This document shows, in pieces, positions 1,878 through 25,254 of a stretch of 56,861 bases of DNA. Position 1 is the first letter of the stretch, and each line of letters begins with the position of its first letter. A program made the translations under genes and the position numbers. The stretch lies in the NCBI GenBank assembly GCA_030690985.1, contig JAUYFG010000274.1:1-56861 (forward strand). The letters are read 5' to 3'. Source of the DNA: Pseudomonadota bacterium. GTDB taxonomy: Bacteria > Pseudomonadota > Gammaproteobacteria > Burkholderiales > Thiobacillaceae. The notes under the pieces were generated by a model, which made no database searches, was not told where the DNA came from, and worked only from the letters and a program-made list of their open reading frames with translations.

Positions 1878-1982
1878 GTAGCGCAGGCGTCTCGCCTGCG
1901 GGTTAGGCGAGTGCAGGCGAGACGCCTGCGCTACAGGGGGCGCCTGCGGGTTAGGCAAGTGCAGGCGAGACGCCTGCGCTAC
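1878..1982. repeat. REPIN-like element, GTAGCGCAGGCG family, with duplicated right half
   Basis: A full palindrome (1878-1934, GTAGCGCAGGCG to CGCCTGCGCTAC) is followed by a second copy of its right half ending at 1982. The terminal GTAG, read on the minus strand, supplies the TAG stop of the adjacent diguanylate cyclase gene. Related copies are at 38623-38681 and, as a half, at 50686-50707. Confidence 0.85.
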
Positions 1983-3985
1983 AGGGGCTGTTTTTCGGTG
2001 ATTTCCATTTCCACCCGGTTGCGGCCGCTGTGTTTCGCCCGGTAAAGCGCATGGTCGGCGCGCGCGAGGACAGCATCGGCAGTGCTGTCGCCACGGGCGA
2101 ACAGGGCGACGCCGATGCTGACGCTGTAGTGGACCATTCCAGTTGCGGTTTCAACCTGGGTGTCATTGATTATCTGGCGCAGGCGCTCCGCCAGTTCGCA
2201 CGCGCCTTCGCCATCGGTATCGGGCAGCAGGATGGCGAATTCCTCGCCGCCCAGGCGGCCGAGGTGGTCGCTGCGTCGCAGGATCTGCCGCGCGCCGGCG
2301 GTGAATGACTTGAGGACCGCATCGCCGGCGGCATGGCCGAATTCGTCGTTGACGAGTTTGAAATGGTCGAGATCGAGCATGAGCAGCGCGGCGGCTTCGC
2401 CGTAGCGCTGATGGCGTGCCAGTTCCTGTTCCAGTTGCTGCAGGAAGTGGCGCCGGTTGTGTGCGCCGGTGAGTGAGTCGGTCGTGGCCAGGAGGCGCAA
2501 CTGCTGGGCATGCGCCTGGCGCTCGGAGATGTCCTGAAATACCACCACCGCCCCTACGCGGACGCCGTTCTTCAGCACCGGGGTGACCGTGAGGGCAACC
2601 GGGAAGCCACTGCCGTCGCGGCGCCAGAACCATTCCTCCTCTTCGTGCCGCGGCCGGCCGTCGGCCAGGGTCAGCGCGATGGGGCAGTCGGCGTGCAGGT
2701 AGTCGCGGCCATCGGCATGGTGGTGATGGAACAGCAGATGCTGGTCGCGCCCCAGCACGTTTTCGCCAGAGAGGCCGAGCATGCGCAGCGCGGCCGGGTT
2801 GATGAAGGTCGCGTGGCCTTTCAGGTTGACCCCATAGACACCTTCGCCCAGGCCCATGAGCAGCAACTGGAAGCGGGCTTCACTCTCGTTCAATGCGATT
2901 GCTTTCTGTTCCACCTGAAACCTCCAGCGGCGCTGCGTATTGCGCAGCAGCCAGAGCAGGAGCAATTGGGCAATGCAGTAACCGAGCAGGGCACCACCGG
3001 CCAGCGTCATCTGTGCCTGGCGATGGCGGTGCACCAGGTTGCCCACGTCGCGCCAGATCAACACCGAGCCGACAGCAGGCCGTTTGGCGCTCAGCACGCC
3101 GAGATAATCGCGTAGGGGTATCCGGGTGATATGCAGGATGCTGCCTTGATAGGGCAGCAGCCAGGAAAGTGGCCGGTCGCGGAATTCAGGGAACGGGATG
3201 TGGCCCAGCAAATCTTTGAATTCCAGACGAGAACTGGCTTCCAGATAGCAATCACAACCGTTTTTCTGGCGCATTCCTTCGCGGTATTCACGCCAGACCG
3301 AAGATTCCACATGTTCGGGTTTGAGTAGAACGGCAAAGCCGGCGCCCAGTTGCCGGTCGAGCAGGCCGAGTTGTGTGTTGAATGCCGTGCCGGCTTCCAG
3401 GGAGCCGATCAGGCGGGTGGTGCCATCGGTATCGATGGCTTCGACCGGTACCACACCGCGTACCCCGGATTGCACGCGGCCGGTTTCGAACCCGGCGCGC
3501 GGCTGGCGGTCGCGGAGGGTGTCCTCGATGATGTGGCGCAACCCATCCATGCGGTCGCCATAGCGTTCCGGCGCATGGACGCGCAGGAAGGAGAGGACGC
3601 CCGGGCCGAGATGGAATTGCAGTTGGCGCACGCCGAACCGGGTCTGCATGTAATGCCATTGTGGTTCCACTCGGGCGAGCAGCGCGGCGCGCACACGCGC
3701 GGCGCGTGCGCCGCCGGCACCGCCGCCTTCAGCCAGTATCGCGGCACGGCCCTGGTCGAACAGGCGTTGCACTTCCGGGTCAGCCGCCAGCAGGCTGGCG
3801 AGGGCAAGCATCTGCTGCTCCAGATTGCCCACGGCGACTTCGAACGCGGTCTGTAGCCGGCCGGCATCCTGGTTAAGCTGAACTTGCAGCTCATGTTCGT
3901 GATCGCGCCACACCAATGCGGTGATGGCGGCGAAGATGATGAGCAGAAGGGCGCTGGCAAGCCAGGTGAGCAGGCGGAAGTGCAT
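1979..3985 (-). CDS. Membrane sensor diguanylate cyclase (periplasmic sensor, PAS, GGDEF)
   Basis: The 668-aa protein should make cyclic di-GMP in response to an extracytoplasmic and/or PAS-sensed signal. An N-terminal membrane segment (about 5-26) precedes a periplasmic domain of about 290 residues that resembles a Cache-type sensor. A second membrane segment (about 325-345) follows, then a PAS domain (about 365-490) and a GGDEF domain. The catalytic motif is intact as GGEEF (579-583). RRSD (570-573), placed five residues before it, is a product-inhibition I-site. The stop codon TAG lies in a repeat element. Signal and output are unknown. Confidence 0.88.
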   Translation of the reverse strand: MHFRLLTWLASALLLIIFAAITALVWRDHEHELQVQLNQDAGRLQTAFEVAVGNLEQQMLALASLLAADPEVQRLFDQGRAAILAEGGGAGGARAARVRAALLARVEPQWHYMQTRFGVRQLQFHLGPGVLSFLRVHAPERYGDRMDGLRHIIEDTLRDRQPRAGFETGRVQSGVRGVVPVEAIDTDGTTRLIGSLEAGTAFNTQLGLLDRQLGAGFAVLLKPEHVESSVWREYREGMRQKNGCDCYLEASSRLEFKDLLGHIPFPEFRDRPLSWLLPYQGSILHITRIPLRDYLGVLSAKRPAVGSVLIWRDVGNLVHRHRQAQMTLAGGALLGYCIAQLLLLWLLRNTQRRWRFQVEQKAIALNESEARFQLLLMGLGEGVYGVNLKGHATFINPAALRMLGLSGENVLGRDQHLLFHHHHADGRDYLHADCPIALTLADGRPRHEEEEWFWRRDGSGFPVALTVTPVLKNGVRVGAVVVFQDISERQAHAQQLRLLATTDSLTGAHNRRHFLQQLEQELARHQRYGEAAALLMLDLDHFKLVNDEFGHAAGDAVLKSFTAGARQILRRSDHLGRLGGEEFAILLPDTDGEGACELAERLRQIINDTQVETATGMVHYSVSIGVALFARGDSTADAVLARADHALYRAKHSGRNRVEMEITEKQPL

Positions 3986-4095: not shown

Positions 4096-5004
4096 TTACC
4101 CGCGCAGATTGCGCAGATGGTCGTGGTAACGGGCGCGATAGAGCAGGCGGCGATGGTCCGGGTGATCGGAGAAACCGGAGCGGGTGTGCGGGATGTTGTT
4201 GCAGATCACGCCCATACCGGGTTGCAGACCGAGGGTGAAGAGGCCCGGGGGGTCGCCCGCAAGCAGGTCGGCCAGCGCACCGACGGCGGCCAGCGTGGCT
4301 GCATCCTGTTTCCAGGCGATGCTCTTGGTGCGGGCGGTGTAGCGCAAGTGCAGGGTTGGAAACTGCTGTGGCCCGCTATCCACCAGGAAAGACGGGCCGG
4401 ATTCGTCGGGGCGCGCCACGCCCAACTCATCGGTGCGCGCCGGGATGGTCATGGCGTCTTCGGCCATCAGGGCGCGAATATGCATGGGGTCGGCGTCGCG
4501 CAGAGCGATGTAGGCAAGCTCGTGGTCGTACAGGTCGTTGATGCCGCCCGCGTCGGCGGCGCGTACGCAATGCAGGGTCATGGCCCAGATGCGCCGCTCG
4601 GGCGGGTTGTAGTAGCCGTCTGTATGCCAGCGGATCGGCTTGTGGGTGTAGGGGATGAATTCGCCGCGCTGCTGGCCATCTTCATCGTGTGGGGTGAGGC
4701 TGGAAATGCCGTCCTCGTCCGCCAGCCAGTTGGCGTCCAGGTGGGTCAGGCCAAATTGCGCAGCGAGTTGGCTGATTGATTCCTTGTCTTCGGTTTCGCC
4801 CAGATCGGTGGCGTAGATCGCCATGTTGGTCTTGGCGATCAGCTTCCAGATGGCCTGGTATTCGCTGTCGGAGAGATAGCGCGGGTCACGCACCTTGACG
4901 ATGAGGTCTTCGCCGCGCGTCGGGTAATTCGCCAACTTGGCGGCGCGCCAGGCCTGGTAGCCGGCTTCGTTGTCGGGGTGGAAGGGGGAGTCGGCGGGGA
5001 TCAT
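4096..5004 (-). CDS. TauD/TfdA-family Fe(II)/2-oxoglutarate dioxygenase
   Basis: The 302-aa protein has the fold-diagnostic iron ligands: WHTD at 126-129 (His127, Asp129) and the distal NNIPHTRSG (His273), with Arg residues downstream for 2-oxoglutarate. Members hydroxylate small substrates; TauD releases sulfite from taurine. The substrate cannot be read from sequence. It is the last gene of the operon divergent from dsr, so a sulfonate or other sulfur compound is plausible, but that is inference. The start at 5004 has no Shine-Dalgarno and is preceded by AATCCAAA-type heptad repeats. Confidence 0.85.
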   Translation of the reverse strand: MIPADSPFHPDNEAGYQAWRAAKLANYPTRGEDLIVKVRDPRYLSDSEYQAIWKLIAKTNMAIYATDLGETEDKESISQLAAQFGLTHLDANWLADEDGISSLTPHDEDGQQRGEFIPYTHKPIRWHTDGYYNPPERRIWAMTLHCVRAADAGGINDLYDHELAYIALRDADPMHIRALMAEDAMTIPARTDELGVARPDESGPSFLVDSGPQQFPTLHLRYTARTKSIAWKQDAATLAAVGALADLLAGDPPGLFTLGLQPGMGVICNNIPHTRSGFSDHPDHRRLLYRARYHDHLRNLRG

Positions 5005-5039
5005 GTGATTTTGGATTTTGGATTTCGGGGGAGGGCGGC
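5005..5039. repeat. Degenerate heptad repeats (ATCCAAA/ATCCGAA type)
   Basis: The short gap between the dioxygenase start and the upstream gene reads, on the minus strand, CCGAAATCCAAAATCC followed by AAAATCAC and the ATG. It belongs to the same heptad family seen at 50708-50742 and inside cheA (56035-56086). It replaces a normal ribosome binding site. Confidence 0.6.
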
Positions 5040-5624
5040 TTACTCTTTGCTCTCCGCCGGATAAAACCCGTCCATGTTCTTCTTCACCATGCCCTGCATC
5101 TCGGGCATTTCGATATCCATGATCTGATCCTGGATCCAGGTCTGGTCGGATTGCTCCATGATTTCGCGGATTTGCAGGGAGAGAAAACGCAGCGCGGGGA
5201 AACTGGCTTTTTCTTCGGGGAAGTCGAATGCCGCGTAATCGCCCATGCGCCGATTGGTTAGATCGATGAAGCCAGCCTGGTAGTCGTAGTCCGGGTCTTT
5301 CTCGCCGCCGGTAACTTCGATGATGTTTTCTTCCATGATCTCGGCCAGACGCACACCGACCGCGCTGACCACGTCCTGGCGTAGTTCGTCATCCATGCGG
5401 TTGAAGGCCAGGCGGTCGACGTAATGGACCAGAAAGCAGGCCATTTCGCCGATGATGCGGAAGCCGCGCTGCGGCGTGATGATGTCGAAATCGGCTTTGG
5501 ACAGATTGTCGATGGTGCGGTCGCACAGGCGCCAGATGGTGGAGGCGAGGACGGTGGCGACTTCGGCAGGATCGCGTTGTTCGCCTTCCTTCTTGAACCA
5601 GACGGTTTTGACTCTGAGTGCCAT
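5040..5624 (-). CDS. Conserved-looking protein of unknown function, dsr-linked operon
   Basis: The 194-aa soluble protein begins MALRVKTVWFKKEGEQRDP. It appears mostly alpha-helical, with no signal peptide, membrane segment, Cys motif or recognisable catalytic signature. It is acidic toward the C-terminus and ends in a Met-rich stretch (MDIEMPEMQGMVKK). The start at 5624 was chosen over 5669 because GGAGAATAACC precedes it and the upstream sulfurtransferase gene ends two bases earlier, which implies translational coupling. Its position suggests a role with the sulfurtransferase and DsrC-like protein. No function is assigned. Confidence 0.75.
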   Translation of the reverse strand: MALRVKTVWFKKEGEQRDPAEVATVLASTIWRLCDRTIDNLSKADFDIITPQRGFRIIGEMACFLVHYVDRLAFNRMDDELRQDVVSAVGVRLAEIMEENIIEVTGGEKDPDYDYQAGFIDLTNRRMGDYAAFDFPEEKASFPALRFLSLQIREIMEQSDQTWIQDQIMDIEMPEMQGMVKKNMDGFYPAESKE

Positions 5625-5626
5625 GG

Positions 5627-6475
5627 TTATTCTCCGGTGGCGATGGGCCTGGCGGGATCGCGTATCCATTCGCTCCAGGAGCCGGGGTAGAGGCGCGAGC
5701 CGGGCAGGCCGGCGACTTCCATGGCGAGCAGGTTGTGGCAGGCGGTGACGCCGGAGCCGCAGGTATGAATGACCTGCCAGGGCGCGCGGCCTTTCATCAA
5801 GGCCTGATAGTTTTCGCGCAACGCTTCGGGCGGCAGGAAGGTGCCGTCGATGTCGAGGTTCTCGTCGAATGGCCAGTTTATGGAGCCGGGAATATGCCCG
5901 GCGACTGGGTCGAGCGGCTCGAATTCGCCGCTGAAACGACGGTCTGGACGCGCGTCGATGATCAGCGCGTCACCAGTCTGTGAGGCGCGCAACAGGTCAT
6001 CGGCATTAACGATCTGGCTGGGTTCCGGCAGGCAGGCGCAATTGCCTTTGCGTGGCGCCGGCAACTCGGCCGTCAGTGGCCGCTTTTCCTTGCGCCACTT
6101 GGGTATGCCGCCGTCAAGCAGGGCGGCGCCGGGGTGGCCGAGCCAGCGCAGCATCCACCACAGACGCACGGCCATCGCGCCATAGCTGTCGTCGTACACG
6201 ACAACCTGTTTGTTGACGCCGACACCCCAGCTGCAAAGCCGCTCCGCCAGGTCATGGACATCGGGTAAAGGGTGGCGGCCGGTGTTGTCGGTAACTGGCG
6301 CGGACATGTCTTCATCGAGATGAACGTAGCGCGCGCCGGGAATGTGATCTTTGAGGTAGGCCTGACGTCCGGCTTCCGGATCGGTCAGGGTGAATCGGCA
6401 GTCGAAGACAATCCAGTTGGGATCATCGAGATGAGCGGCCAGGTCTTCAGTAGTAACCAGGGTGTTGATGAACAT
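5627..6475 (-). CDS. sseA: 3-Mercaptopyruvate-type sulfurtransferase (tandem rhodanese)
   Basis: The 282-aa protein has two rhodanese domains: an inactive N-terminal one (about 5-125) and a catalytic one (about 155-280). The active-site loop is CGSGVTA with Cys239. That is the mercaptopyruvate sulfurtransferase signature rather than the CRKGVT loop of thiosulfate:cyanide sulfurtransferases. Such enzymes form a Cys persulfide and pass sulfane sulfur to acceptors. Being two bases from the next gene and next to a DsrC-family gene suggests persulfide delivery in sulfur oxidation (inference). The symbol is by family resemblance. Confidence 0.85.
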   Translation of the reverse strand: MFINTLVTTEDLAAHLDDPNWIVFDCRFTLTDPEAGRQAYLKDHIPGARYVHLDEDMSAPVTDNTGRHPLPDVHDLAERLCSWGVGVNKQVVVYDDSYGAMAVRLWWMLRWLGHPGAALLDGGIPKWRKEKRPLTAELPAPRKGNCACLPEPSQIVNADDLLRASQTGDALIIDARPDRRFSGEFEPLDPVAGHIPGSINWPFDENLDIDGTFLPPEALRENYQALMKGRAPWQVIHTCGSGVTACHNLLAMEVAGLPGSRLYPGSWSEWIRDPARPIATGE

Positions 6476-6488
6476 GGGGAGCCTTGGT

Positions 6489-6566
6489 GCAGGAGCGGGC
6501 TTGCCCGCGATTTTCGGCGGTGGCGTTTTGGGCTGCCGCGATTATCGCCGGCAAGCGGGCTCCTAC
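6489..6566. repeat. REPIN-like element, GTAGGAGCGGGC family (no insert)
   Basis: An inverted repeat running from GCAGGAGCGGGCTTGC to GCAAGCGGGCTCCTAC inside the operon, between the sulfurtransferase and DsrC-like genes. It is the uninterrupted relative of 45559-45710 and 48994-49109, which carry a 57-bp insert. Confidence 0.85.
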
Positions 6567-6569
6567 GGG

Positions 6570-6902
6570 TTAGTAACCGCCCTTGCCGAATGGCTTGGTC
6601 ATACCGGACACGCGGGCGGCCTGGCGCGCAGGCTGGCTGGGGAATAGCTCATAGAGCGCTTTTTTCCAGTCGGTGCCAGGGTGCATCTCGTCCAGTTCGG
6701 CAACCATGGCGCGGAAGTTGGGGGTATGGCCATCTTCCCGGTACTTGTCGCGCAGGTAGTTGACGACTTGCCAATGCTCGTCGGTCAGGTTGATTTTCTC
6801 GGCGGCGGCGATGATCTCGACGATCTCGTCGCTGAAGTTGGCTTCCAGCAGGAATTCTTCTTCACCAGTTTCCAGTTCTTCGCCGTTAAGAATGTAGCCC
6901 AC
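6570..6902 (-). CDS. DsrC/TusE-family protein lacking both functional cysteines (RspA-like)
   Basis: The 110-aa protein has the DsrC fold signature in order: LTDEHWQVVNYLRDKYRE, the central helix, then KKALYELFPSQPARQAARVSGMTKP near the C-terminus. True DsrC ends KQACKIAGLPKPTGC. Here both Cys positions are gone (QAAR; KPFGKGGY), so it cannot carry a trisulfide or disulfide. Cys-less homologues have been grouped as RspA, proposed to be regulatory. GTG start at 6902 with AGGAG upstream. It contrasts with the cysteine-complete DsrC at 11825-12160. A binding decoy, scaffold or regulator of Dsr or transfer proteins is plausible but unproven. Confidence 0.87.
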   Translation of the reverse strand: MGYILNGEELETGEEEFLLEANFSDEIVEIIAAAEKINLTDEHWQVVNYLRDKYREDGHTPNFRAMVAELDEMHPGTDWKKALYELFPSQPARQAARVSGMTKPFGKGGY

Positions 6903-6953
6903 GGTTTTTCTCCTATTTCACGGGTTAAAAAAACAGATGACCGACTGGTACGC

Positions 6954-7607
6954 TCAGACGGTCGATACTTCTTTGATCGACTTGTGCGGTATGAAGATGC
7001 CGCAGCCCAATTTGCGGTGGTGTCCCAGACCCTGCTCCTGCACCGCCAGTGAATGCGCCAGACTGAGGTCATGCAACATCAACGTGTGGCCGCTGATCTC
7101 CCCATCGGGGGTGCGCATTTTACGTTGCAACCCCGGTATCAGTCCGCACTGGATGCCCATTTCGTCGAGTTTTCTCCTCACCTCAAGCAAAATCGCTGCT
7201 TCGTCGGCGTTACCCAGCGTCACGAAATGGGAATACAGCGTGCCAAATGGCGTCAGGTTTTTCTCTTTCAAGGGACCGACAACCAGATTGCCGGCCCCTG
7301 GGTCGATGCTCTGGCCGACCAGCGCAAGCGCGGCTTCCAGGCGCGCTACCGGAAGACGCAATACCAGTTTCACTCGCCGATTGATCACCAGATTGTCATT
7401 GCGACCGCTCGGTGCGCCATGTACCGGGTGTATGCCGGCCTCGGGGGTGTCGGCCAGCCAGGGCAGATGTCGCAGCACTTCAGCGTAAAGCGCGGGGCCG
7501 TGGTCTGCGGGGATTTCCCCGCCTGACAAGTCATAGTGGAGGTCCAGTACTTTGGGCGTGAACTTCATATCTTTCACGGCGTCCCATTCCGGGTTGTACA
7601 TGCGCAT
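6954..7607 (-). CDS. Orphan Cas6/Cmx6-like RAMP protein
   Basis: The 217-aa protein resembles the Cas6/Cmx6 (type I-MYXAN) family. It has an N-terminal DLSGGEIPADHGPALYAEV (His36), then EAGIHPVHGA, then two ferredoxin-like halves. The diagnostic glycine-rich loop is GLGHHRKLGCGIF at residues 193-205. Cas6 proteins cleave CRISPR precursor RNA. No CRISPR repeat array or other cas gene is visible in this window. It starts four bases after the upstream gene's stop, with GAGGA as ribosome binding site, and is followed by the DsrC-like gene. It is either a domesticated RNA endonuclease or RNA-binding protein, or a RAMP-fold protein with another role. Confidence 0.75.
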   Translation of the reverse strand: MRMYNPEWDAVKDMKFTPKVLDLHYDLSGGEIPADHGPALYAEVLRHLPWLADTPEAGIHPVHGAPSGRNDNLVINRRVKLVLRLPVARLEAALALVGQSIDPGAGNLVVGPLKEKNLTPFGTLYSHFVTLGNADEAAILLEVRRKLDEMGIQCGLIPGLQRKMRTPDGEISGHTLMLHDLSLAHSLAVQEQGLGHHRKLGCGIFIPHKSIKEVSTV

Positions 7608-7611
7608 GGGG

Positions 7612-7854
7612 TCAGTCCTCGGCGGGCGGGGGAGGGGAGTCGGTGGCCAGTGGCGTGGCCCACTTCAACATTTCTTCCGCCCAGTATTTAGCGGTTGTGG
7701 GATCGACGTCGAAAATGGTGAAACGCGCGCCACGTTCCCGAATCCGCAAGCGCAGCATCGGCGTGCCGCCTGCTTCATAGCGTGCCTCCTGCAACTCGAT
7801 TTCCTGGTTGCCGAAGGGGTTGCGGAACTTGGTGAGAGAGGTGATCTGGTCCAT
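7612..7854 (-). CDS. Small protein of unknown function, first gene of the dsr-divergent operon
   Basis: The 80-aa protein MDQITSLTKFRNPFGNQE... has a predicted beta-rich core (RYEAGGTPMLRLRIRERGARFTIFDVD), a helix (TTAKYWAEEMLKWA) and a Pro-rich acidic tail. It has no Cys, signal peptide or membrane segment. I do not recognise the family. It lies four bases upstream of the Cas6-like gene, so the two are surely co-translated. There is no Shine-Dalgarno before the ATG. A TATACT sequence ends eight bases upstream, which would fit a leaderless transcript (weak inference). Confidence 0.7.
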   Translation of the reverse strand: MDQITSLTKFRNPFGNQEIELQEARYEAGGTPMLRLRIRERGARFTIFDVDPTTAKYWAEEMLKWATPLATDSPPPPAED

Positions 7855-8156
7855 GGGATGTTAGTATATTCCGATACGTTAATTATCTGACAAGAACTGT
7901 CAGGTATTGGCGTTTCAGTTGGGTGCGAACCTGGGTGTACTCAACCTACCCGATCGGGTAGGTTGAGTACTACCCGACTGAAAGCCCGGGTTACCCCCTC
8001 GGAATGATGGTGGACTGGATTAGCACTCCCTAATATGTATTAACTCGTCCCGTACGAGCGAACTGCCAACGGGCAAGAGCGGTAAGTTTGTGACGAGCTT
8101 GCGACAAGTTGGTAACGCGTTTGGGTGTTGTTCAAGACTTCAAGGAGAAAAGACAG
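7855..8156. promoter_or_regulatory. Divergent regulatory region between dsrA and the Cas6-like operon
   Basis: A 302-base gene-free stretch. It holds a 6-5-6 inverted repeat (7887-7903, CTGACA/TGTCAG), the perfect 34-bp palindrome at 7937-7970, a short inverted repeat CTCGT/ACGAG near 8043-8057 and tandem-like TTGTGACGAGC / TTGCGACAAGT near 8090-8107. A weak sigma-70-like pair for dsrA is TGGACT (8011-8016) and TATGTA (8034-8039), spaced 17. AAGGAG precedes the dsrA start. Promoter calls are tentative; the palindromes are directly seen. Confidence 0.6.
7937..7970. promoter_or_regulatory. Perfect 34-bp palindrome, candidate operator
   Basis: Half-site GTACTCAACCTACCCGA, followed with no spacer by its exact reverse complement (centre 7953/7954). 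It lies about 83 bases upstream of the divergent gene start at 7854 and 187 bases before dsrA. No T-run follows on either strand, so a terminator is unlikely. It could bind a dimeric regulator controlling both operons. Alternatively it could be a back-to-back relic of GTAGGTTG repeat ends. Confidence 0.55.
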
Positions 8157-9458
8157 ATGGCTAAGCAAATGATTGATACGCCGAACCTGGACGAACTCGA
8201 GACTGGCCCGTGGCCCTCGTTCGTTACGGGTCTGAAGCGCCTGGCTAAAGACAACGACATGATGGTCGACCTGATGGGCCAGCTGGAGACTTCTTACCAG
8301 ACGCGCTTCGGCTACTGGAAGGGCGGTACTGTTGGTGTGGTGGGTTACGGCGGTGGCGTGATTCCGCGCTTTACCGAATTGAAAGACGAGAACCACAAGC
8401 CCCTGTTCCCCGAGGCGGCCGAGTTCCATACGCTGCGTATCATGCCGCCTGCCGGCATGCATTACTCCTCCGACCTGCTGCGCCAGATGTCCGATGCCTG
8501 GCTGGAAACCGGTGGTTCCGGCCTGATCGCCTTCCACGGGCAGTCCGGTGACATCATGTTGCAGGGTATCAAGACCGCCGATGTGCAGCGTGCCTTCGAC
8601 AAGTTCAACGAAATGGGATTCGACCTCGGTGGTGCCGGTCCCGCATTGCGCACCTCCATGTCCTGCGTCGGCGCCGCACGTTGCGAAATGTCCTGTTATG
8701 ACGAAGCTCGCGCCCTGCGTATTGTCATCAACAACAACCTGGACGACATGCACCGCCCGTCCCTGCCGTACAAGTTCAAGTTCAAGTTCTCCGGCTGCCC
8801 GAACGACTGCATGAACTCCATTCAGCGTTCCGACATGGCCACCATCGGCACCTGGCGCGACAACATCCGCGCAGACGAGAAGCTGGCGCGCGACTGGTAT
8901 GCCGCGCACAGCATGGAAGACGCCATCAACATGGTGGTCAACCACTGCCCGACCAAGGCCATCCAGCTCAAGAAGAACGATGGCGCGGCTGCAGCTGAAG
9001 GCGTCACCAAGGTGGTGCTGTCAGACGACAACTGCCTGGAAATCGACAACCACAACTGCGTGCGCTGCATGCACTGCCTGAACGTCATGCCTGGCGCGCT
9101 CCTGCCCGGCAAAGACAAAGGCGTCACCATTCTGGTTGGTGGCAAGAGTGTGCTGAAGATCGGCGCCACCATGGGCACCGTGGTGATTCCGTTCATGAAG
9201 CTTGAGTCCGACGAGGATTTCGAGCGGCTGAACGATCTGTCCCGCTCCATGCTCGATTTCTTCGCTGAAAACGCGCTGGAGCATGAGCGCACCGGCGAGA
9301 TGATTGAGCGTATCGGCCTGGTCAACTTCCTGGAAGGCATTGAGCTGGAGATCGATCCCAACATGATCAGCTCGCCGCGCTCCAATCCTTACGCTCGCAT
9401 GGATGGCTGGGACGAGGAAGCTGCCAAGTGGTTCGAGCGCAAGCAGGCAGCCGCCTGA
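8157..9458 (+). CDS. dsrA: Dissimilatory sulfite reductase alpha subunit (oxidative type)
   Basis: DsrA pairs with DsrB to form the siroheme enzyme that, in sulfur oxidisers, oxidises DsrC-bound sulfur to sulfite in the cytoplasm. The 433-aa product carries the siroheme-[4Fe-4S] cysteines Cys170/Cys176 (TSMSCVGAARC) and Cys214/Cys218 (SGCPNDC), plus a ferredoxin insert with CVRCMHC (301-307). The start at 8157 (MAKQMIDTPN) is preferred over 8109 because AAGGAG precedes it. It heads the operon. The presence of DsrEFH, DsrL and DsrN and the absence of DsrD mark the oxidative type. No key residue is missing. Confidence 0.97.
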   Translation: MAKQMIDTPNLDELETGPWPSFVTGLKRLAKDNDMMVDLMGQLETSYQTRFGYWKGGTVGVVGYGGGVIPRFTELKDENHKPLFPEAAEFHTLRIMPPAGMHYSSDLLRQMSDAWLETGGSGLIAFHGQSGDIMLQGIKTADVQRAFDKFNEMGFDLGGAGPALRTSMSCVGAARCEMSCYDEARALRIVINNNLDDMHRPSLPYKFKFKFSGCPNDCMNSIQRSDMATIGTWRDNIRADEKLARDWYAAHSMEDAINMVVNHCPTKAIQLKKNDGAAAAEGVTKVVLSDDNCLEIDNHNCVRCMHCLNVMPGALLPGKDKGVTILVGGKSVLKIGATMGTVVIPFMKLESDEDFERLNDLSRSMLDFFAENALEHERTGEMIERIGLVNFLEGIELEIDPNMISSPRSNPYARMDGWDEEAAKWFERKQAAA

Positions 9459-14672: not shown

Positions 14673-16631
14673 ATGTCGGTCACTTCCAAAGACGTAAAGA
14701 AGACTGAGGGTTCCACGTGGCGTCGTTACAAGGACGGCGAGAAGGAAGGGCAGTACAAGCGTGCCCAGGAAATGATTTTCCAGGCGAGCTGGACCCACAA
14801 GTGCCCGGAGTATGTGCATTCCACACCGCCTTGCCAGGGCTCCTGCCCGGCCGGTGAAGACATCCGTGGCTACCTGAATATCGTGCGTGGCATCGAGAAG
14901 CCCACCGGTGGCCAGAGCTGGCAGGAATACGCCTTTCACCGCCTGACCAGCGCCAACCCCTTCCCCGCCGTCATGGGCCGTGTCTGCCCGGCGCCGTGCG
15001 AGTCCGGTTGCAACCGCAACCAGATCGAGGAAAACGTGGGTATCAACTCGGTTGAACACTTCCTCGGCAACTGGGCGCTGGAAAACAACATCGGTTTTGA
15101 AAAGCCGGCCAATGAAAGTGGCAAGAAGATCGCCATCATCGGCGGTGGCCCCGCCGGCCTGGCAGCCGCCTATCAGCTGCGTCGCATGGGCCACGGCTGC
15201 ACGATATTCGATGACCACGCTGAACTCGGCGGCATGATGCGCTACGGCATCCCTGGTTTCCGTACCCCACGTGATGTGCTCGACGGCGAGATCAAACGTA
15301 TCGTCGACATGGGCGTGGAAACGCGTCTGAACACGCGTATCGGTACCGATATCAGCATGGAGCAGATCGAGAAAGACTACGACGCAGTGCTGATCGCCCT
15401 GGGTGCTCAGGGTGGCCGTACTTTGCCGGTTGAGGGTGCTGATGCCCCCAACTGTGTTCCCGCCACCGCCTTCTTGCGTGCCTTCAACGAAGGCCGTTTG
15501 CAGCACGTCGGCAACAAGATCGTGGTTATCGGTGGTGGTGACACCTCCATCGACGTGGCGACCGTCGCCCGTCGTCTTGGCAAGGTCACCAATGCCTCCA
15601 CCACTGATCTGCCGGAAATGGTGCTGGCTGGCCATACCGCGCACGACGTCGCCAGCATTTCCGCCCGCATGGGTGTCGAAGTGGTGCTGATCTCCCGCGC
15701 CACCATCGACAAGATGGCTGCCAACAAGCACGAAGTCGAGCAGGCCAAAGCCGAAGGCATCGAGATCATCGGCGGCGTGACGCCCATCGCCGTGATCAAG
15801 GATGCCTCCGGCCGTGCCACCGCGCTGCGCGTGGCCGAGTTCGAAGTGGTCGGCAAGGAAACCAGGATCAAGGAAGGCACTGAATTCGACATCACCGGTG
15901 ACTTGATCGTCTCCGCCATCGGCCAGGCCGTCGATTTCACCGGCCTCGAAAGCTTCAACAACAACAATGGTCTGATCCGCGCCGACAAGAACTACCGCTT
16001 CCCCAACAAGCCGAACATCTTCGTCGCCGGTGACGTGATCCGCCCGCATCTGCTGACCACCGCAATCGGCCATGCCCGCATCTGTGCCGACGGTATCGAC
16101 GCCTTCCTCAAGGGCGAAGAAGCAGGCAAGCGGCCCAAGGTCGACGTGGCGCATTGGGACCAGGTACGCAAGTGGGTCGAAACCGGCCATGAGTACAAAG
16201 AGCACCACGGCCAGGAAACGGGTAGCGACTCCTGGAAGGACGTCTTGCACAACTTCGACGACCGTTCCGGCCGTTATGTGATCCCGTCCACCGAGATGTT
16301 CCTCGGCCACTTCATGAACGTCCCGCGCAATCAACGTGGTGTAACTACGTTGGACAAGGACTCCGCCCTGGGTAACTTCGAAGACCGCCTGCACGCCCTG
16401 GACGATAAGCAGACTGTGGCGGAAGCCAAGCGCTGCATGTCCTGTGGCCTTTGCTTCGAGTGCGACAACTGCGTGATCTACTGTCCGCAAGTGGCCGTGT
16501 TCAAGGTCAAGAAGAAAGACAACCCCACCACCGGCCGTTATGTGGACACCGACTACACCAAGTGCATCGGTTGCCACATTTGTGCCGAAGTGTGCCCGAC
16601 CGGCTACATTCTCATGGGCATGGGCGAGTAA
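14673..16631 (+). CDS. dsrL: DsrL, iron-sulfur flavoprotein NAD(P)H oxidoreductase
   Basis: The 652-aa protein is related to the small subunit of glutamate synthase/NfnB. N-terminal Fe-S cysteines (CQGSCPAGEDI; RVCPAPCESGCNRNQ) are followed by an FAD motif, IAIIGGGPAGLAAA (about 150-163), and a nucleotide motif, IVVIGGGDTSIDVA (about 287-300). A C-terminal two-cluster ferredoxin (CMSCGLCFECDNC; CIGCHICAEVC) ends the protein. In sulfur oxidisers DsrL accepts electrons from DsrAB and reduces NAD, and it is essential for the oxidative pathway. Length matches the family. Confidence 0.95.
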   Translation: MSVTSKDVKKTEGSTWRRYKDGEKEGQYKRAQEMIFQASWTHKCPEYVHSTPPCQGSCPAGEDIRGYLNIVRGIEKPTGGQSWQEYAFHRLTSANPFPAVMGRVCPAPCESGCNRNQIEENVGINSVEHFLGNWALENNIGFEKPANESGKKIAIIGGGPAGLAAAYQLRRMGHGCTIFDDHAELGGMMRYGIPGFRTPRDVLDGEIKRIVDMGVETRLNTRIGTDISMEQIEKDYDAVLIALGAQGGRTLPVEGADAPNCVPATAFLRAFNEGRLQHVGNKIVVIGGGDTSIDVATVARRLGKVTNASTTDLPEMVLAGHTAHDVASISARMGVEVVLISRATIDKMAANKHEVEQAKAEGIEIIGGVTPIAVIKDASGRATALRVAEFEVVGKETRIKEGTEFDITGDLIVSAIGQAVDFTGLESFNNNNGLIRADKNYRFPNKPNIFVAGDVIRPHLLTTAIGHARICADGIDAFLKGEEAGKRPKVDVAHWDQVRKWVETGHEYKEHHGQETGSDSWKDVLHNFDDRSGRYVIPSTEMFLGHFMNVPRNQRGVTTLDKDSALGNFEDRLHALDDKQTVAEAKRCMSCGLCFECDNCVIYCPQVAVFKVKKKDNPTTGRYVDTDYTKCIGCHICAEVCPTGYILMGMGE

Positions 16632-19154: not shown

Positions 19155-20531
19155 ATGCCGCATCTATACCTCTCCGCCGCCCACAAATCCTCGGGCAAAA
19201 CCACGCTTACCTTGGGCCTGTGCCGGGCTCTGCGCAATCGTGGCCTGAAGGTACAGGCATTCAAGAAAGGGCCGGATTACATCGACCCGATCTGGCATGG
19301 TCTGGCGGCCGGTCGCCCCAGTTACAACCTGGATTTCCACATGATGCATAAGGTGGAAATCGAGGCTTTGTTCGCGCGCCATGCCGGCGTGGCCGACATC
19401 AGCCTGATCGAGGGCAACAAGGGGCTTTACGACGGCATGGATGTGGAAGGCTCCAACAGCAATGCCGCGCTCGCCAAGTTGCTGAATGCACCGGTGCTGC
19501 TGGTGCTCGACACCATCGGCATGACGCGTGGCATCGCGCCGCTGATCCTCGGTTATAAGGCCTTCGACCCGGCGGTGAACATCGCCGGCGTCATCCTCAA
19601 CAAGGTGGGTGGGCCGCGCCATGAGGGCAAATTGCGCGAGGTGATTGCGCGCTATACCGATGTGCCAGTCTTGGGGGTGGTCTACAAGAGCGAACAAATG
19701 GCCATCGCCGAGCGCCACCTCGGCCTGGTGCCGGGGAACGAAGCGGTGGAGGCGGATGCCCGCGTCGAAGCCATTGCCAGCCTGGTCGCCGCGCAAGTGG
19801 ATATCGACCGTCTCCTGGAGATTGCCGGCCAGGCCGCCGCACCCCGCCCGCCGCTGGCGAAACGATTGGGACAGGGCGGGCTGCGTATCGCTTACGCGCA
19901 TGACCGCGCCTTCGGTTTCTACTATCAGGAAGACCTCGACACCCTGCGCGATGCCGGATTCGAACTGGTGCCTCTGAATACGCTGCGGGACGCGCGACTG
20001 CCCGACGTGGATGGCCTTCTGTTGGGTGGCGGTTTTCCGGAGATGTTCATTGAGGCCCTGGCCGCCAATGCCAGCCTGCGCGCGGATGTCGCTCGCCAGA
20101 TTGAAGCCGGGCTACCGGTCTATGCCGAGTGCGGTGGCCTCATGTTCCTGGCGCGTTCGCTCCGCTGGGGCGAACGACAGGGCGAGATGGTCGGAATCCT
20201 GCCCGGTGATGTGGTCATGACCGACCGCCCAGTCGGCCGCGGTTATGCGGAACTGGAAGAAACAGCGGAGGCGCCCTGGGCCGCGCAGACTCAAACGATT
20301 CCCGCGCACGAATTTCACTACTCGCACTTGGAAAACCTGCCCAGCGACCTCAATTACGCCTACCGCGTGAAACGTGGCCACGGTATGGATGGCCAACGCG
20401 ATGGCTACGTCTATCGCAATCTGCTTGCTGCCTACTGTCATCGACGCGGTTCCGGCGAGCGCGGCTGGATTGCACCTTTCCTGGAGAAAGTGCGCGTGTA
20501 TTCCCGATCGCTCAATCGCCTAGCCGCTTGA
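19155..20531 (+). CDS. dsrN: DsrN, siroheme amidase (CobB/CbiA-like)
   Basis: The 458-aa protein resembles cobyrinic acid a,c-diamide synthase. An N-terminal ATP-binding P-loop domain (SAAHKSSGKTTL) is followed by a C-terminal class I glutamine amidotransferase domain with nucleophile Cys in YAECGGLMFLA. In Dsr organisms it amidates siroheme to the siro(heme)amide used by DsrAB. No clear Shine-Dalgarno is present. TAAAAT at 19145-19150 lies just before the ATG, compatible with its own promoter and a very short leader (weak). Confidence 0.92.
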   Translation: MPHLYLSAAHKSSGKTTLTLGLCRALRNRGLKVQAFKKGPDYIDPIWHGLAAGRPSYNLDFHMMHKVEIEALFARHAGVADISLIEGNKGLYDGMDVEGSNSNAALAKLLNAPVLLVLDTIGMTRGIAPLILGYKAFDPAVNIAGVILNKVGGPRHEGKLREVIARYTDVPVLGVVYKSEQMAIAERHLGLVPGNEAVEADARVEAIASLVAAQVDIDRLLEIAGQAAAPRPPLAKRLGQGGLRIAYAHDRAFGFYYQEDLDTLRDAGFELVPLNTLRDARLPDVDGLLLGGGFPEMFIEALAANASLRADVARQIEAGLPVYAECGGLMFLARSLRWGERQGEMVGILPGDVVMTDRPVGRGYAELEETAEAPWAAQTQTIPAHEFHYSHLENLPSDLNYAYRVKRGHGMDGQRDGYVYRNLLAAYCHRRGSGERGWIAPFLEKVRVYSRSLNRLAA

Positions 20532-24585: not shown

Positions 24586-25182
24586 TCACCGCCGCCGGAA
24601 CCAGCCAGTCAGCGACAGACGCCGGCGCTGGGCCGGCAGGACTTCGTGCCAGAAGCGGTCGGAAAGAAAGGTCACCAGGGTGCCGCCGGCCGGTTGAATT
24701 TCCAGCGGCGTGGTTTCCGGGTCCGGCCAGAACTGAAGCTGGCCGCCGTCTTCCTCGCGCCAGTCCGGCTCATTGAGATAAAGGATCACCGTCAGGCTGC
24801 GCCGGTCATCGTCACGGAAGCGGTCAAGGTGGCGCTGGTAGCCGGCGCCGGGCGGATACACGGCGAAATGCGTTTCCAGGTCGAACAGGCCGAGGAACAG
24901 TTCCTGATTCACCTTCTGGCGGAGTGACTCGAAGCGGTCGAGCAGTTCGTGCAACGCCGGGCCGGTATTCGTTTCATCCACCCATAAAACATGGTCGCCA
25001 CGTAATTCCGAACGTATCTGCGCCTGCCCGCGCCCCACCCCGGCGGCGTGGAAGGCACCGGCCGCATGCGCCTGCAAACACGCTGCGCGTAAGGCCGCTG
25101 TCTCGGCCTCGCCGACAAATCCGGGAACCACGCACCAGCCGTAATGGGCCAAAGCGGTGACGATGTTTTCCTCGCTACTCAC
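24586..25182 (-). CDS. 2-Oxoglutarate/Fe(II) oxygenase (prolyl-hydroxylase-like)
   Basis: A protein of about 198 aa with a double-stranded beta-helix. Iron ligands are in YQRHLDRF (His-x-Asp) and the distal FWHEVLPAQRRRLSLTGWF, which supplies His and the 2-oxoglutarate Arg. It resembles the SM-20/prolyl 4-hydroxylase branch; the target is unknown. The GTG start at 25182 is preferred over ATG 25209 because AGGAGG lies eight bases before GTG. It is convergent with the ABC exporter. Confidence 0.8.
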   Translation of the reverse strand: MSSEENIVTALAHYGWCVVPGFVGEAETAALRAACLQAHAAGAFHAAGVGRGQAQIRSELRGDHVLWVDETNTGPALHELLDRFESLRQKVNQELFLGLFDLETHFAVYPPGAGYQRHLDRFRDDDRRSLTVILYLNEPDWREEDGGQLQFWPDPETTPLEIQPAGGTLVTFLSDRFWHEVLPAQRRRLSLTGWFRRR

Positions 25183-25196
25183 ACCGCGCTCCTCCT

Positions 25197-25254
25197 GTAG
25201 CGTCAGCATCCTCGCCGGCGTCGTTGAAAAGAGCCGGCTGGAAGCCGGCGCTAC
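25197..25254. repeat. REP-like element, GTAGCGCCGGC family
   Basis: The element runs from GTAGCGTCAGC to GAAGCCGGCGCTAC. It is the intergenic relative of the element inserted in aroE (46270-46358): both share GTAGCGCCGGC, GCCGGC and TTTCAAC blocks in the same order. Confidence 0.8.

Follow-up and report, generated by a model that had tools for sequence, protein, structure and literature searches.

A Cas6-family protein and a cysteine-less DsrC paralogue in an operon tied to the oxidative dsr genes

We describe a six-gene operon in which a Cas6-family protein and a DsrC paralogue without cysteine stand opposite the sulfur-oxidation gene dsrA. It lies in a stretch of 56,861 nucleotides from a bacterium of the Thiobacillaceae (assembly GCA_030690985.1, contig JAUYFG010000274.1, positions 1 to 56,861), the whole of which we call the window. 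The operon encodes a DUF6967 protein, the Cas6-like protein, the DsrC paralogue, a two-domain rhodanese, an orphan protein and a TauD-like dioxygenase. We conclude that it is almost certainly a part of the oxidative Dsr system that has nothing of CRISPR (clustered regularly interspaced short palindromic repeats) function. The conclusion is drawn from sequence comparison: the genes are linked to dsr, the Cas6 fold is kept and most of its basic charge lost, the Cas6-like proteins form a separate clade, and a nearly fixed KGGY tail replaces the Cys-bearing arm of DsrC. By the same comparison the module is dsr-locked and inherited as if vertically. If this is true, a near-universal and unnamed part of gammaproteobacterial sulfur oxidation has been misfiled as CRISPR, and a Cas protein has been exapted into central energy metabolism. 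Moreover, there would be a testable handle on how DsrC traffic is controlled, and a false Cas6 may enter the tallies of CRISPR surveys that cover sulfur bacteria and symbionts. No link between Cas6 and dsr was found in those parts of the open-licence literature that we searched.

The operon accompanies dsr across genomes

Genomes were compared within the GTDB order and class of the window genome, class Gammaproteobacteria being counted with the betaproteobacteria included (betas and gammas hereafter). Genomes are labelled G (the window genome is G000), and the loci or regions compared are labelled L. A single draw of 200 genomes of the order served for dsrA, Cas6, DUF6967 and the orphan. dsrA (TIGR02064) scored over the cut-off in 38 genomes, and we counted 40 by including G014, where the gene is split, and G161, where it is partial. 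Cas6 (PF09559) was present in 36 of these 40 and in 0 of the 160 others (Fisher p 1.4e-35). DUF6967 occurred in 36/200 genomes, every one within the 40, and the orphan in 39/40 and 0/160, which makes it the most faithful marker of dsr in the order. The dsr-positive genomes without Cas6 are G083, G122, G132 and G145; those without DUF6967 are G122, G135, G145 and G173, and G145 is without the orphan. The locus is broken at contig ends in G122 and G145. G083 and G132, two well-assembled beta genomes, are also without the KGGY-tailed protein.

The class sample of 369 genomes, searched with PF09559 and for dsrA at E <= 1e-40, gave the same picture. Cas6 was found in 118, dsrA in 118 and both in 111 (p 5e-76). 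In 82 of the 118 Cas6 genomes dsrA lay within 10 kb of Cas6, each time in divergent orientation. Two genomes carry both genes far apart on one contig (41 kb in G307, 517 kb in G521), and in 34 the Cas6 contig gave no match to dsrA. Seven genomes have Cas6 and no dsrA match, and regions of six were examined (all but G384). Five of these six loci are cut at or near the expected beginning of dsrA; the TauD gene is at the contig edge in G325, G292 and G266, Cas6 itself is at the edge in G514, and G515 keeps a piece of dsrA there. The sixth, G496, is a contig of 7.4 kb. Conversely, seven genomes have dsrA and no Cas6 (G269, G278, G308, G321, G405, G409 and G551), of which the region of G405 was examined. 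In Gammaproteobacteria the Cas6-like protein comes close to being a marker for the Dsr pathway of sulfur oxidation. The sequence-only reading of the window had suggested an accessory module for sulfur oxidation, and the order, class and orphan counts bear this out: when co-occurrence was checked, homologues were not mostly found away from dsr or in non-sulfur bacteria.

Nearer relatives were collected by scanning 84,980 species genomes for the motif GCG[IVL]F[IV]PHK and keeping the best 80 of 560 relatives, that is, the nearest relatives of the window. The best 80 are named Thiobacillus, Sulfuricella, Sulfuriferula, Hydrogenophilales, other betas or broad groups; one label each of Rhizobium and Bordetella parapertussis is attached to a metagenome bin. 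With the window these make 81 regions, which have Cas6 by selection, and in all 81 tblastn found DUF6967 and a divergent dsrA. By profile, the best 80 regions, some of them incomplete, hold the KGGY paralogue beside Cas6 in 77, the orphan in 79, the rhodanese in 77 and the TauD-like protein in 58. A second, mixed set of 80 oriented regions comprised 40 beta regions (several incomplete, two of them lone second dsrA copies), 39 gamma regions chosen from Cas6-positive genomes, and the window. Here the minus-strand clusters upstream of dsrA were Cas6/DUF6967 (merged through a fusion) in 76, the DsrC paralogue in 72, the TauD-like protein in 63, the orphan in 61 and the rhodanese in 23. Profiles run on the 40 beta regions found Cas6, DUF6967 and the paralogue in 34 each, the orphan in 36 and TauD in 28. 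The members constant over betas and gammas are the Cas6-like protein, the KGGY-tailed DsrC paralogue, the TauD-like protein and the orphan. The gene order recurs across nearly all dsr-positive relatives examined, both beta and gamma, including gamma genomes of 1.0-1.1 Mb. Moreover, purifying selection acts on each of the six genes (Ka/Ks, the ratio of nonsynonymous to synonymous substitution rates, 0.02-0.38 against seven relatives), and therefore the operon is not a chance arrangement.

A draw of 200 genomes from the phylum gave Cas6 solely in the window's own genome, and a draw of 140, very probably included in the 200, gave dsrA in 34 genomes, 33 of them outside the class. We considered these cases of dsrA without Cas6 as counter-evidence and rejected them as such, since in 14 of the 16 non-class regions examined (from 15 genomes) DsrAB is accompanied by no match to DsrE or DsrC, which points to a reductive Dsr. 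DsrE is present in the other two, L286 and L297, and L297 has none of the module. Thus, the non-class regions indicate that the module goes with the oxidative type of gammas and betas and not with Dsr in general.

The Cas6-like protein stands apart from its CRISPR relatives

The Cas6-like protein was matched by the Cas6 models of Pfam, NCBIfam and PADLOC. Its AlphaFold2 model (predicted local distance difference test, pLDDT, 91.6) was aligned by Foldseek to Cas6 of a type I-B CRISPR-associated transposon (CAST; PDB 8fcj) with a template modelling (TM) score of 0.83 and E about 1e-18, and a profile search matched the same chain at 1e-33. In the model the double RAMP (Cas6) fold is retained. The protein therefore resembles Cas6/Cmx6 of type I-MYXAN (I-B) and of type I-B CAST in its family models, in its fold and in its Gly-rich GxG...GCGxF loop, whose G193, G195, G201 and G203 are retained in the clade. 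Unlike those proteins, the dsr-linked clade is tied to dsrA, was not found near Cas1 in the 60 genomes tested, is mostly acidic, and has lost GG[KR] and gained E136 and a C-terminal HK.

We placed 73 dsr-linked proteins in a tree with eight others, namely seven plasmid Cas6 genes with cas genes as neighbours and a single one from Gloeobacter that has no genes named cas around it. In this midpoint-rooted tree, whose bootstrap was not fully settled, the dsr-linked proteins fall on one side of a 100/99 branch, forming one clade if the root lies outside them. Within it, gammas (100/94) and betas (91/80) separate, the pattern expected from vertical descent. The median net charge is -3 in the clade compared with +6 to +14 in CRISPR Cas6, and the isoelectric point (pI) is below 7 in 60/73 proteins (median 6.25, range 4.8-9.6, versus 9.3-10.2). 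The GG[KR] of the Gly-rich loop is kept in none of the 73. E136 is present in 73/73, where CRISPR Cas6 has Pro in 7/7; R78, G159 and the C-terminal H-K are nearly fixed. The column of H36, which we take to be the candidate catalytic His of Cas6, holds His in 40/40 gammas, 20/33 betas and all six CRISPR homologues that could be scored; it is absent in 13/33 betas, and 10 betas have neither H36 nor H60. Taken together, these data suggest that the basic RNA-binding character has mostly been lost, and the separate clade, E136, the C-terminal HK and the acidic pI point to a neofunctionalised protein.

The sequence-only reading had coupled RNA binding or cleavage to sulfur transfer. Its RNA half is weakened by the acidic clade, the loss of GG[KR] and the betas without the His, and what remains in its favour is that all gammas keep that residue. 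A fuller version would have the Cas6-like protein still binding, and in gammas perhaps cutting, a hairpin RNA, for instance one within the dsr transcript, with the paralogue coupling this to sulfur supply and so giving post-transcriptional control of dsr. We regard this as unlikely. It would agree with the fold, the retained Gly-rich loop and the distribution of H36, with the rhodanese or double TusA of most beta regions described below, and with the perfect palindrome of the control region, which, as read from the sequence, would fold as an RNA hairpin too. TusE, a relative of DsrC, acts in tRNA thiolation (PMC3397948). Against it stand the charge and the pI, the missing GG[KR] and the betas without H36 or without both histidines. 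Moreover, an Rfam scan of window positions 1-30000 returned no family over the gathering score, and a simple RNAalifold scan of the 36 closest control regions yielded no 110-column segment as stable as -12 kcal/mol.

The matches to Cas6 models of three databases could also mean that the gene is a stray remnant of a CRISPR or defence system that happens to lie beside dsr. We looked for Cas1, the single cas gene covered by our search, in 60 genomes out of the 153 that carry Cas6 (36 from the order and 118 from the class, one shared). It was absent from 37, which include complete single-contig genomes. In the 23 genomes with Cas1, a distance of 248 kb or more separates it from the Cas6-like gene, or the two are on different contigs. 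We therefore reject the remnant explanation, to which we allow hardly any credence: there is one dsr-tied clade in more than 100 genomes, under purifying selection, with no Cas1 nearby where tested.

Two observations on Cas6 in other settings may be recorded here. The window genome bin contains eight Cas1 pieces on five contigs (C6, C177, C199, C231 and C248), so that real CRISPR systems probably exist elsewhere in the bin. The Cas6/Cmx6 of a Gloeobacter morelensis plasmid (L321, 6974-7765) has no annotated cas neighbours and is one gene away from a gene of the PAPS-reductase family, perhaps another non-CRISPR setting.

The DsrC paralogue ends in a nearly fixed KGGY tail

Over its body the paralogue is like the DsrC/TusE carriers: it matches PF04358 and DsrC structures (PDB 1yx3 at E 7e-31), and its profile follows 1yx3, 1sau and 2v4j to position 108/112, just before the tail. 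Unlike them, it is without the penultimate C-terminal Cys and ends in GKGGY, as in the window, or RKGGY. Tails were counted in DsrC-family ORFs (open reading frames) on the Cas6 strand within 1.5 kb in gammas, and in the best paralogue match on the Cas6 strand in betas. Beside Cas6, RKGGY was found in 36/37 ORFs of gamma loci and GKGGY in 32/33 of beta loci, giving KGGY in 68/70 overall; of the two that deviate, one is a second copy in L212 with the ending PKGCS, and the other has GKAGY. Among the best 80 named regions, 77 of 77 adjoining paralogues end in GKGGY. The tail is the most invariant part of the protein. There is no Cys anywhere in 56/71 proteins of a set chosen for the GGY tail. A paralogue of this kind is predicted to be unable to carry sulfur in the manner of DsrC.

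The tail also tracks the module. A 60-genome search included 48 dsr-negative genomes, 11 of which gave profile matches, all ending at 106-108 of 112 and so short of the tail. Even where Cas6 has no dsrA nearby, 12 of 20 loci still hold the KGGY paralogue within the region. Cys-less DsrC homologues have been proposed as regulators under the name RspA, and the window paralogue is presumably among them. In the portions of the open-licence literature searched we found neither that name or proposal nor a link of such proteins to the Cas6 clade or to a KGGY end.

Further observations concern the paralogue and its surroundings. The window copy is 67% identical to that of L099, whose Cas6 is 96% identical, and 94.5% identical to that of L092, whose Cas6 is 85% identical. 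The DsrC paralogue seems to have been swapped between lineages, perhaps as two allele types at one locus. A small charged protein (median 73 aa) is found near the paralogue in 21 gamma regions (L231, L207, L209 and 18 others), and the two examples tested matched no Pfam family.

A conserved palindrome lies between the operon and dsrA in betas

The 36 close control regions align on a palindrome that is perfect in the window. TACCC half-sites come next, spaced by 24 and 21 bp. TACCCN4GGGTA is present in 34 of the 81 control regions against 0.02 expected from base shuffles; similar forms are seen in other regions, and an N5 version in several betas that are more distant. Genome-wide, CTACCCN4GGGTAG has one perfect site, that of the control region, and two with one mismatch; the backwards control pattern gave 28. 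These data fit a putative DNA operator for a dimeric regulator, and its conservation fits co-regulation of the operon and dsr in betas, as the sequence-only reading would have it for the whole operon. A sigma-70 scan gave 1 site compared with 4.0 in shuffles, and a terminator scan 9 compared with 10.2.

Such an operator raises the prospect of a transcriptional switch, in which the paralogue would bind the control region through its helix-turn-helix-like DsrC fold and set both operons, with the Cas6-like protein and DUF6967 as co-regulators. DsrC is reported to bind DNA upstream of dsr, and the conserved palindrome with its spaced half-sites would fit a switch in betas. On pyrite, the DsrC paralogue Alvin_1508 of A. 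vinosum drops about 7-8 fold along with dsr (PMC11267869); this is a lead only, Alvin_1508 being at most a candidate for the KGGY paralogue. Against the switch, gamma regions with the same genes lack the palindrome (one of the 39 has an N6 form), and the tail, not the helix-turn-helix, is the invariant part of the paralogue. Overall, we think a switch of this kind improbable.

Accessory members of the operon

The first gene belongs to DUF6967, so that only one member of the operon, the orphan (5040-5624), is without a recognised family, and not two as first supposed. DUF6967 and the Cas6-like protein are one ORF in L071 and probably also in G020, where both matches fall in an open frame of the same length; no such fusion occurs in the 80 named regions. 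A gamma-only protein of 62-67 aa adjoins Cas6 in 35 mixed regions. We tried it as a DUF6967 homologue and do not claim it as one, the hhalign E being 0.0028 but the probability 11%.

The rhodanese is like SseA-type 3-mercaptopyruvate sulfurtransferase in having two rhodanese domains and, as read in the window sequence, a CGSGVTAC loop. It differs in scoring below the equivalog cut-off (NF008557, 148 bits against 250), in being replaced by a double TusA in other betas, and in its absence from 37/39 gamma regions. The 23 rhodanese regions of the mixed set are 21 beta regions including the window and two gamma regions, and the double-TusA protein is in 15 beta and 0 gamma regions. Either or both are present in 35/41 beta regions and both together in L054 alone; thus one seems to stand for the other in betas. 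For the sulfur-transfer half of the coupling proposed earlier the evidence is mixed: the rhodanese is in 77/80 of the nearest relatives and one or the other protein in most betas, and just two gamma regions have either.

The TauD-like protein shares the HxD...H residues of the TauD/TfdA 2-oxoglutarate dioxygenases and, unlike them, has no PDB sequence relative at E <= 0.001. H127, D129 and H273 are invariant in 63/63 aligned dsr-linked homologues, and an active Fe/2-oxoglutarate enzyme is therefore likely. The AlphaFold2 model of the orphan (pLDDT 90.7) consists of six helices, and its fold had 0 matches in the PDB at E <= 0.001. The operon might instead serve in maturation or repair of DsrAB or DsrC: the TauD-like enzyme would hydroxylate one of the Dsr proteins, and chaperone roles would fall to the orphan and to the pair of Cas6 and paralogue. 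The intact 2-His-1-carboxylate residues would suit this, as would the fidelity of the orphan to dsr and the occurrence near dsr of two more 2-oxoglutarate-dioxygenase-like families in 23 and 19 gamma regions. These families, assigned by reading the sequences without a family scan, lie about 3-10 kb upstream of dsrA (L203-L238), mostly on the opposite strand. On the other hand, the TauD-like protein is missing near the locus in 17/80 regions, some of them incomplete, and an oxygen-dependent step would be odd for the anaerobic phototrophs that use Dsr. A maturation or repair role is accordingly doubtful to a slightly greater degree than the switch.

One further protein, of median 238 aa, is found between the TauD-like protein and Cas6 in 17 gamma regions (L203, L208, L211 and others); two were tested and had no Pfam match over the cut-off.

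A proposed role in gating DsrC

We propose, with a little less than even confidence, that an exapted Cas6 and a dummy DsrC gate the docking and traffic of DsrC. The structure predictions are of single proteins (the Cas6-like protein and the orphan), and both the mechanism and the docking on which it depends are our inference. Because its DsrC body is kept, the paralogue could dock where DsrC docks, on DsrAB and on DsrEFH/TusA, and the unreactive KGGY arm would make the docked paralogue a dummy. The Cas6-like protein may hold or release the dummy by means of its old hairpin-binding cleft, with the possible help of DUF6967 in betas. Depending on the state of sulfur or redox, the complex would thereby gate the access of DsrC to sulfite reductase and to the sulfur relay. 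The TauD-like protein, dependent on O2 and 2-oxoglutarate, and in betas the rhodanese or double TusA may supply a sensing or loading input, and in betas the two operons would be expressed jointly under the control of the palindromic operator that lies between them.

Several findings weigh against this proposal. The candidate His is kept in all 40 gamma proteins and the Gly-rich loop is retained, so that RNA binding is possible. The N4 or N5 palindrome was not found in the 39 gamma regions, and DUF6967 is in only 2/40 gamma regions. The pairing of Cas6 with the paralogue also has its gaps: L142, L145 and L167 have Cas6 without an adjoining KGGY protein, in G260 Cas6 is present with no match for the KGGY protein, and G405 has a KGGY protein without a PF09559 match. 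At 8 of the 20 Cas6 loci without a nearby dsrA there is no paralogue in the region examined, and among the 12 that have one it is about 8 kb away once and on the opposite strand once. Lastly, L286, whose dsr looks oxidative and lies outside the class, has TauD and a weak DUF6967-like match (33 bits) and neither Cas6 nor the paralogue; oxidative-type dsr can therefore run without the pair.

A bolder extension would be that Cas6 was recruited once from CRISPR, early in Gammaproteobacteria, and that with the dummy DsrC and DUF6967 it forms a sulfur-status sensor that reads a hairpin RNA or the operator and couples carrier loading to dsr output. We rate its chances as poor, much as for the transcriptional switch.

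Operon layout and neighbouring genes

The coordinates are given in Table 1. The six minus-strand genes, the 4-base and 2-base gaps and the divergence from dsrA that were first noticed in the window are all borne out by the ORF coordinates. The 4-base gap separates genes 1 and 2, the 2-base gap the rhodanese and the orphan, and the other gaps are of 51, 94 and 35 bases. The 2-base gap assumes that the orphan starts with the ATG at 5624, which is backed by homologues; the ORF list has a longer frame from 5669. Likewise, the start of dsrA is taken as 8154, the listed ORF opening at 8109.

Table 1. Features of the operon and its junction with dsrA, in window positions.
Feature	Position	Strand	Match or remark
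Gene 1, DUF6967 protein, 80 aa	7612-7854	-	PF22295 97 bits
Gene 2, Cas6-family (Cmx6-like), non-CRISPR clade, 217 aa	6954-7607	-	PF09559 179 bits; TIGR02807 153 bits (cut-off 98.85)
Gene 3, DsrC/TusE paralogue without Cys, C-terminus GKGGY, 110 aa, GTG start	6570-6902	-	PF04358 101 bits
Gene 4, two-domain rhodanese / 3-mercaptopyruvate sulfurtransferase-like, 282 aa	5627-6475	-	PF00581, two stretches
Gene 5, orphan all-helical protein (predicted), 194 aa	5040-5624	-	no Pfam/NCBIfam family over cut-off
Gene 6, TauD-family Fe(II)/2-oxoglutarate dioxygenase-like, 302 aa	4096-5004	-	PF02668 49 bits
Shared control region, operon/dsrA	7855-8153	.	299 bp
Palindrome CTACCCGATCGGGTAG, probable operator	7946-7961	.	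TACCC half-sites next at 7971-7975, 7992-7996
dsrA, divergent neighbour, opens oxidative dsr operon	8154-9458	+	TIGR02064 490 bits; then dsrB, dsrE, dsrC

Second full-length copies of dsrA away from the main dsr cluster were seen in five genomes (G088:C6, which is L091; G145:C45, which is L088; G182:C1:485898; G062:C17; G167:C28), and no dsrB was found in the region examined of L091 and L088. A 2OG-FeII_Oxy_3 protein (24586-25209, minus strand) lies in the window shortly past the dsr/cysG genes; compared with the ORFs upstream of dsrA in the 80 regions, it matched none. Beyond the operon, the same strand encodes a GGDEF protein (1979-3985) and PPK2 (243-1781), which are matched in just 10 and 5 of the 81 related regions and are thus outside the conserved module. 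On the other side, window proteins used as queries found dsrA, B, E, C, M and K in that order in relatives, and the window further contains an FAD/Fe-S oxidoreductase (14673-16631), which we read as dsrL, and a CobB-like protein (19155-20531), which we read as dsrN.

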